Below the pieces are notes generated by a model. The model worked only from the letters and a program-made list of their open reading frames with translations, did not search any database and was not told the origin of the DNA. A program made the position numbers and the translations under genes. A stretch of 64,000 bases of DNA from contig NZ_GL892076.1 in assembly GCF_000213975.1 (NCBI RefSeq), forward strand, positions 2,677,595 through 2,741,594, given 5' to 3'. This stretch comes from Centipeda periodontii DSM 2778 (GTDB lineage Bacteria > Bacillota > Negativicutes > Selenomonadales > Selenomonadaceae). This document shows positions 27,637-28,095 of this stretch, in pieces; position 1 is the first letter of the stretch; the number at the start of each line of letters is the position of its first letter.

Positions 27637-27726
27637 ATATTTTCGCACAAAAAAAAGACAGCACGCAGACTGTCCGATGTGTGATACCGTTGTTGATGTT
27701 ATCTATTCGGTGGACGGTCAATCTAG

Positions 27727-27886
27727 GGAATCACTGATAAAATGAAGTCTGCCAGATTGGCGTAGATTTTTCGTCCGAACAAGGTGGAAAACCGGACGCA
27801 GAGTGATGCTCTGTGGAGGATTTTCCGCCGAAGTGCGGGCAAAAAAGATGCGTCAAGATGGTAGTGCTGAATTTATCAGTGACTCC
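27727..27886 (+). mobile_element. MITE-like palindromic element (family A), copy 4
   Basis: 160 bp with ends GGAATCACTGATAAAATG and AATTTATCAGTGACTCC. Flanking tetranucleotides are CTAG and CTGA, only partly matching, so the duplication has decayed or is absent. It separates the bio operator region from the 20-residue peptide gene and ends 28 bases before that start codon. Confidence 0.85.
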
Positions 27887-27913
27887 CTGAGCCCTAGAGG
27901 GTGGTGATTGACT

Positions 27914-27976
27914 ATGAACGAAACAAATATTGCGCTTTTGTTGCTTGTCGTTCTAGTATTACTGATAAAAAAGTAA
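27914..27976 (+). CDS. Small hydrophobic peptide, candidate type I toxin
   Basis: A 20-codon ORF: a polar MNETN start, a stretch of Ala, Leu, Val and Ile long enough to enter a membrane (residues 6-18), and a Lys-Lys end. GGGTGGTGATTGACT before the ATG resembles the leader of Firmicute holin-like toxins such as the TxpA/BsrG class. A terminator begins at its stop codon, and a good promoter on the opposite strand (28067-28095) would make an antisense RNA overlapping its 3' end. That layout is typical of type I toxin-antitoxin systems. No homology search was possible, so the assignment is inferred from architecture. Confidence 0.5.
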   Translation: MNETNIALLLLVVLVLLIKK

Positions 27977-28060
27977 ACCGCCCCATAGCAGCCAAGTTAT
28001 AGGCGGTTTTACTTTCCAACTATACAAGGGGCTGGCCGTTTACACGACAGCACCTTTTCT
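27967..28060 (-). ncRNA. Candidate antisense RNA to the small peptide mRNA
   Basis: A promoter at 28067-28095 on the minus strand should start RNA near 28060. The hairpin at 27975-28010, read in this direction, is followed by ACTTTTTTATC at about 27975-27965, giving an RNA of about 95 nt. It would pair with roughly the last 45 nt of the peptide mRNA, including its stop codon and terminator. No direct evidence of expression. Confidence 0.45.
27975..28010. terminator. Shared bidirectional terminator of peptide mRNA and antisense RNA
   Basis: AAACCGCC and GGCGGTTT form an 8-bp stem. TTACTTT follows on the plus strand and ACTTTTTTATC on the minus strand. Confidence 0.7.
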
Positions 28061-28066
28061 ATGTGT

Positions 28067-28095
28067 ATTATACAACAGAACGCAAATCATTTCAA
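28067..28095 (-). promoter_or_regulatory. Antisense promoter facing the small peptide gene
   Basis: On the minus strand TTGAAA (28090-28095), a 17-base spacer and a perfect TATAAT (28067-28072). It starts at the extreme 3' end of the metallophosphoesterase gene and no annotated protein gene follows it, which supports a small RNA. Confidence 0.6.

Follow-up and report, generated by a model that had tools for sequence, protein, structure and literature searches.

In the par system, convergent promoters, a small hydrophobic peptide, a hairpin common to both RNAs and 5' structures that occlude the ribosome site have been described (PMC7472228). The AapA and Hok mRNAs form a long-distance interaction between their 5' and 3' regions (PMC6733600), and the TxpA toxin is a peptide of 59 amino acids (PMC8167048). 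For Selenomonas or the Negativicutes, no type I system was found in the openly licensed papers that were searched. We analysed a stretch of 64,000 nucleotides from Centipeda periodontii DSM 2778, here called the window, in which a preliminary description had proposed a type I toxin-antitoxin pair. From its sequence features, we consider it likely that this locus represents one of the copies of a type I toxin-antitoxin family which is chromosomal, is widespread in the Negativicutes and would operate by the mechanism set out below. In the same literature, this family is apparently undescribed.

The features of the locus are collected in Table 1. The hydrophobic ORF of 20 codons was located where it had been claimed, with its ribosome site in the upstream stretch GGTGGTGATTGACT. 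The convergent promoter is present as well, reading from 28095 to 28067 on the - strand with an 11/12 match, and would give an antisense RNA of about 95 nt, expected to run from about 28061 to a T-run at about 27966. A covariance model of the antisense RNA, termed R1, matched at 27967-28060 with 87.6 bits. The arms of hairpin 1 comprise 27970-27987 and 27998-28015, and the terminator scan scored this hairpin on the - strand. The tail following it is the complement of the antitoxin 5' hairpin. Both the predicted toxin mRNA and the predicted antitoxin RNA have more stable folds than shuffled sequences (z -2.6 to -2.8).

Table 1. Candidate elements of the toxin-antitoxin locus, numbered by position in the window
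Feature	Positions	Strand	Basis
Putative toxin ORF, type A, 20 aa MNETNIALLLLVVLVLLIKK, followed by TAA	27914-27976	+	ORF call; purifying selection in type A
Putative ribosome-binding site GGGTGG	27899-27904	+	G-rich motif 5' of the ATG, also kept in relatives
Hairpin 1, predicted antitoxin terminator and possibly also toxin terminator in the window copy	27970-28015		Terminator scan; T-runs
Predicted 3' tail of the toxin mRNA: hairpin 2 and CCTTTTCT, likely toxin terminator	28027-28060	+	T-run polarity (112 loci); long-distance helix
Predicted antisense antitoxin RNA, about 95 nt	27966-28061	-	Covariance model match; predicted structure
Predicted antitoxin promoter TTGAAA-17-TATAAT	28067-28095	-	Sigma-70-like scan, 11/12 match
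First part of the putative toxin mRNA 5' leader, GATGTTATCTATTCGGTGGACGGTCAATC	27694-27723	+	Family alignment; would pair with the 3' tail
Probable remnant of the toxin promoter -10, GATACC	27683-27688	+	Alignment to the ortholog L011 (TATAAT)
MITE-like inverted-repeat element inside the leader	27725-27888	no strand	Inverted repeats; fold; copies; absent from L011/L024

The occurrence of the cassette was followed with model R1, which had been built from an alignment of 13 copies. Two close relatives of the region are found elsewhere in the same genome, where the model matched about ten times with an E no higher than 1. An exact-style pattern detected relatives in 7 of 14 genomes of the genus; model R1 matched all 14, as well as 84 of 189 genomes of the family (22 of 30 genera) and 86 of 300 genomes of the class (32 of 97 genera). 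In a draw across the phylum, 7 of 398 genomes matched at the stricter E of 1e-4, one of them outside the class and with a copy that encodes the longer kind of peptide. The cassette L165, which comes from a different class of this phylum, has the same leader and tail motifs and a type C peptide of 33 aa, which suggests that the RNA frame extends beyond the Negativicutes. Among the named relatives that carry the cassette are Selenomonas massiliensis and Selenomonas sp. FOBRC6. No mobile copies were found in viral contigs with an exact pattern, nor in plasmids or phages with a single query each. Tandem copies were observed at six loci (L162 at G000:C1 around 550.8 kb, L075, L079, L122, L128 and L143), and the two copies of L162 encode near-identical peptides of 22 aa.

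The matches were then scored for a peptide ORF, defined by an ATG, a length of 15-45 codons, a ribosome-site motif, a hydrophobic stretch and an end at the hairpin. Such an ORF was present in 85 of 121 matches and on the opposite strand, taken as a control, in 1 of 121. The combination of ORF, terminator and antisense RNA recurs in the own genome and in relatives far above chance. In the 36 matches that failed the strict test, many ORFs were degenerate or none was found, and some matches retain the antisense RNA next to a broken or missing ORF. In L094, at the bioY-metallophosphatase site that several species have in common, the toxin ORF is lost and the antisense -10 also looks decayed. Three kinds of peptide share the common RNA frame: kind A (MNETN.TLLL...), which is found in the window copy, kind B (M..YDF...FLVTICIVA.KA) and kind C, which has 31-38 aa. 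Codon changes in the peptide ORFs fall mostly on third and first positions. With a median dN/dS of 0.09 for type A and 0.25 for type B, the sequences indicate that both types are under purifying selection.

Both promoters were also recognised across the family. The antitoxin -10 matched in at least 5 of 6 positions in 70 of 73 loci and its -35 in at least 4 of 6 in 67 of 73. The toxin -10, which was scored by consensus only, was present in 70 of 74 loci, with a TGn extension in 59 and a -35 in only 29. Peptide and antisense promoter are both conserved in relatives. At the level of sequence, the proposed type I layout is supported by its broad conservation, by selection on the peptide ORFs and by the retention of both convergent promoters. 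In many copies of the genus, an A-tract with a GACAGC...GCTGTC hairpin lies just 5' of the toxin -10 (27649-27675 in the window; also L011, L014, L015, L017, L023 and L066). This element looks like a terminator for leftward transcription, i.e. for read-through of the antisense RNA.

To assign the ends of the two RNAs, T-runs were counted at 112 loci when at least 5 T were present in the 8 downstream positions. At hairpin 1, 84% of the loci had a T-run in the antitoxin direction and 29% in the toxin direction; for hairpin 2, the values were 92% in the toxin direction and 0% in the antitoxin direction. Read most simply, these counts assign hairpin 1 to the end of the antitoxin and hairpin 2 to the end of the toxin mRNA. 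Since this polarity places the mRNA end at hairpin 2, the toxin transcript probably spans the entire antitoxin, which would be complementary to it over the full antitoxin length. The overlap of the antisense RNA with the 3' end of the mRNA, as first proposed, is retained in this assignment, but it probably covers the entire antitoxin. A bidirectional terminator had also been proposed. The window copy does have T-runs on both sides of hairpin 1 (6 of 8 each), so early termination of the toxin mRNA is possible there, but in the family the T-run is mostly on the antitoxin side. One caveat is that the A-run which is conserved where the antitoxin begins could also be maintained for transcription start.

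The leader of the toxin mRNA, GGUGCUACC...GGUAGGCGGUC, and the tail, GACCGUUUACC...GGUAGCACC, are complementary to each other. The leader-tail duplex had a mean energy of -36.4 kcal/mol, and its z was below -2 in 74 of 74 loci. Shuffled leaders gave a mean of -18.6 and non-cognate leaders one of -31.1. Within loci, the 9-mers of the leader and of the antitoxin 5' end differed by a mean edit distance of 1.05, compared with 2.28 after permutation (0 of 5000). In 50 distinct leader-tail sets, 95.4% of the cells pair, and 30-51% do so in slid structures; 9 pairs were changed on both sides, in 60 such cells, a count reached by 0 of 500 shuffles. As these rows share ancestry and had been selected by consensus matching, the figures overstate their independence. 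The paired percentage and the covariation score were likewise unreached by any shuffle. Among the non-Watson-Crick cells of helix 1, G-U occurred 30 times and A-C 15 times (p 0.036), and helix 2 contains two constant G-U pairs. Because of this G-U excess and the constant G-U pairs, pairing on the toxin strand is favoured over a mere identity of leader and antitoxin. Taken together, the alignments indicate that the 5' leader and the 3' tail of the toxin mRNA can form a covarying long-distance helix.

We infer the transcripts, the toxicity and the action of the antitoxin from these features and propose the following mechanism. From a weak extended -10 promoter, the toxin mRNA would be transcribed with a length of about 200 nt, and it would code for a membrane peptide of 20-22 aa (sometimes 31-38 aa) with a single helix. 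The stronger convergent sigma-70 promoter would direct the synthesis of the antisense RNA of about 95 nt, which would end at hairpin 1. With the mRNA most likely ending at hairpin 2, the antisense RNA would be complementary to the entire 3' region. The leader-tail helix and a local hairpin over the ribosome site would hold the mRNA inert, and pairing of the antisense RNA with the 3' region is expected to cause decay or a block of translation. Most likely, a full-length 3' duplex would remove the helix and expose the mRNA to decay; the local hairpin would presumably keep translation low.

A switch was also considered in which binding of the antitoxin would open the leader-tail helix and thereby shut off the ribosome site. 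The predicted access of the ribosome site was 0.23 in the full mRNA, 0.19 in the truncated mRNA, which lacks the tail, and 0.18 in the antitoxin-bound mRNA, and was low in every state. The antitoxin 5' hairpin paired no more strongly with the ribosome site than dinucleotide shuffles did, and direct pairing was discarded. On account of both results, we do not claim a ribosome-site switch.

The toxin side of the window copy carries an insertion. Its arms (27725-27780 and 27833-27888) fold with -90 kcal/mol (z -11), and with a length of 165-171 bp, about 40 near-full copies in the own genome and 83-96% identity, MITE is a fair name for the element. The preliminary description had placed it directly upstream of the peptide gene. 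The element is real, but the S. massiliensis ortholog (L011/L024), which is uninterrupted and has no MITE, shows that it sits within the 5' leader, where it separates the leader from the ribosome site. From the ORF to the antitoxin, the window copy differs from L011 at 3 of 147 positions: one in the ORF and two in the antitoxin hairpin, which together make a compensatory change from A-U to G-C. The promoter and leader differ at 10 of 49 positions, which is above the ORF-to-antitoxin rate (p 7e-5) and, compared with 7 of 80 in the downstream flank, not clearly faster (p 0.07). The toxin -10 reads GATACC in the window copy and TATAAT in S. massiliensis, and the leader-tail helix is weakened to -21.7 kcal/mol. 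The idea that the MITE may have supplied a promoter found no support: the promoter scan found no + strand sigma-70-like site from 27590 to the ORF, including the stretch between MITE and ORF, and the decayed original promoter lies upstream of the MITE. A second MITE copy in the own genome (L159, G000:C1:793591-793851) interrupts a further toxin-antitoxin locus, where it separates the antitoxin 5' hairpin from the antitoxin terminator. Other MITE copies lie near cassettes in relatives (L017, L023 and L040).

With the MITE inside the leader and the toxin -10 decayed, the window copy probably makes no toxin, while its antisense promoter is intact and its ORF, terminators and antisense gene have hardly changed. 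The locus could instead still be a working toxin-antitoxin pair, with the toxin transcribed from the MITE or by read-through. The ORF with its single change from L011, the kept antisense promoter and the compensated antitoxin hairpin would agree with this; we regard it as unlikely, given the GATACC sequence, the empty promoter scan, the strong MITE hairpin in the leader and the weakened helix. The probably silent copy would be an example of the toxin side decaying ahead of the antitoxin side.

For the family as a whole, the peptides might be ordinary small membrane proteins, for instance regulatory ones, that are under cis-antisense control and are not toxins. Their conservation, the length of 31-38 aa in some of them and the chromosomal location, with no plasmid or phage copies found by one query each, are compatible with such a role. 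Many copies per genome, unrelated peptides that are interchangeable on the same RNA frame, an antisense promoter stronger than the sense promoter, the occluded ribosome site and degenerate ORFs beside retained antisense RNAs argue against it, and we hold it to be improbable. Far less probable still is the reading that the cassette is a non-autonomous mobile repeat, bounded by the leader and tail motifs as its inverted ends, with an ORF that is incidental. It would account for the near-inverted repeats on both sides of the ORF and for several copies per genome at different intergenic sites, but not for the conserved promoters outside the repeats, the coding selection, the bioY-metallophosphatase site common to several species and the excess of G-U over A-C. 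We further think it reasonably probable that, in a type I toxin-antitoxin family centred on the Negativicutes, one conserved RNA frame of leader, polarised twin terminators and antisense gene is combined with at least three kinds of peptide that are unrelated to each other, and that one 3' element serves as toxin terminator, as helix-closing arm and as template of the antitoxin 5' hairpin. The family would be a large, unannotated addition to the toxin-antitoxin genes of a bacterial class that lives in the mouth and gut, and model R1 provides the means of finding it. It would also be a small model in which to study what keeps a toxin mRNA inert and why the same RNA control frame is used again for different peptides.

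The cassette had no match above the cut-off in Pfam, NCBIfam, PADLOC and Rfam; the OhsC antitoxin (RF02495) reached 25 bits, below its curated score of 50. No described toxin family matched at the cut-off in Pfam or NCBIfam, where the peptides are too short to exclude a distant kinship. The family resembles TxpA/RatA and BsrG/SR4 in the antisense RNA over the 3' region of the toxin mRNA and in the hydrophobic peptide, but its peptides are mostly 20-22 aa long, far from the length of TxpA, and a 5'-3' helix is not described for these systems in the literature searched.

With Fst/par of pAD1 and its chromosomal relatives, the family shares the convergent promoters, the hydrophobic peptide, the shared hairpin and the occluded ribosome site. 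Fst has a PXXXG motif and a charged C-terminal tail, whereas the family has neither; type A and most type B peptides contain no P or G and so lack the Fst motif. The direct repeats DRa and DRb of par pair the two RNAs with each other, the antitoxin with the ribosome site, but here the outer repeats are inverted and would pair leader with tail within the mRNA. Also, par has a shared bidirectional terminator; hairpin 1 of the window copy has T-runs both ways, and across the family the terminators look polarised. AapA/IsoA and Hok/Sok are similar in the covarying helix between the mRNA 5' and 3' ends, a likeness that rests on the layout of the helix and not on sequence similarity. In those systems, processing of the 3' end activates translation; for the family, loss of the tail leaves the predicted ribosome-site access almost the same (0.23 to 0.19). 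Unlike in these systems, the 3' arm here is the complement of the antitoxin 5' end and likely the terminator, and the predicted anti-Shine-Dalgarno sequence is local and does not come from the 3' tail.
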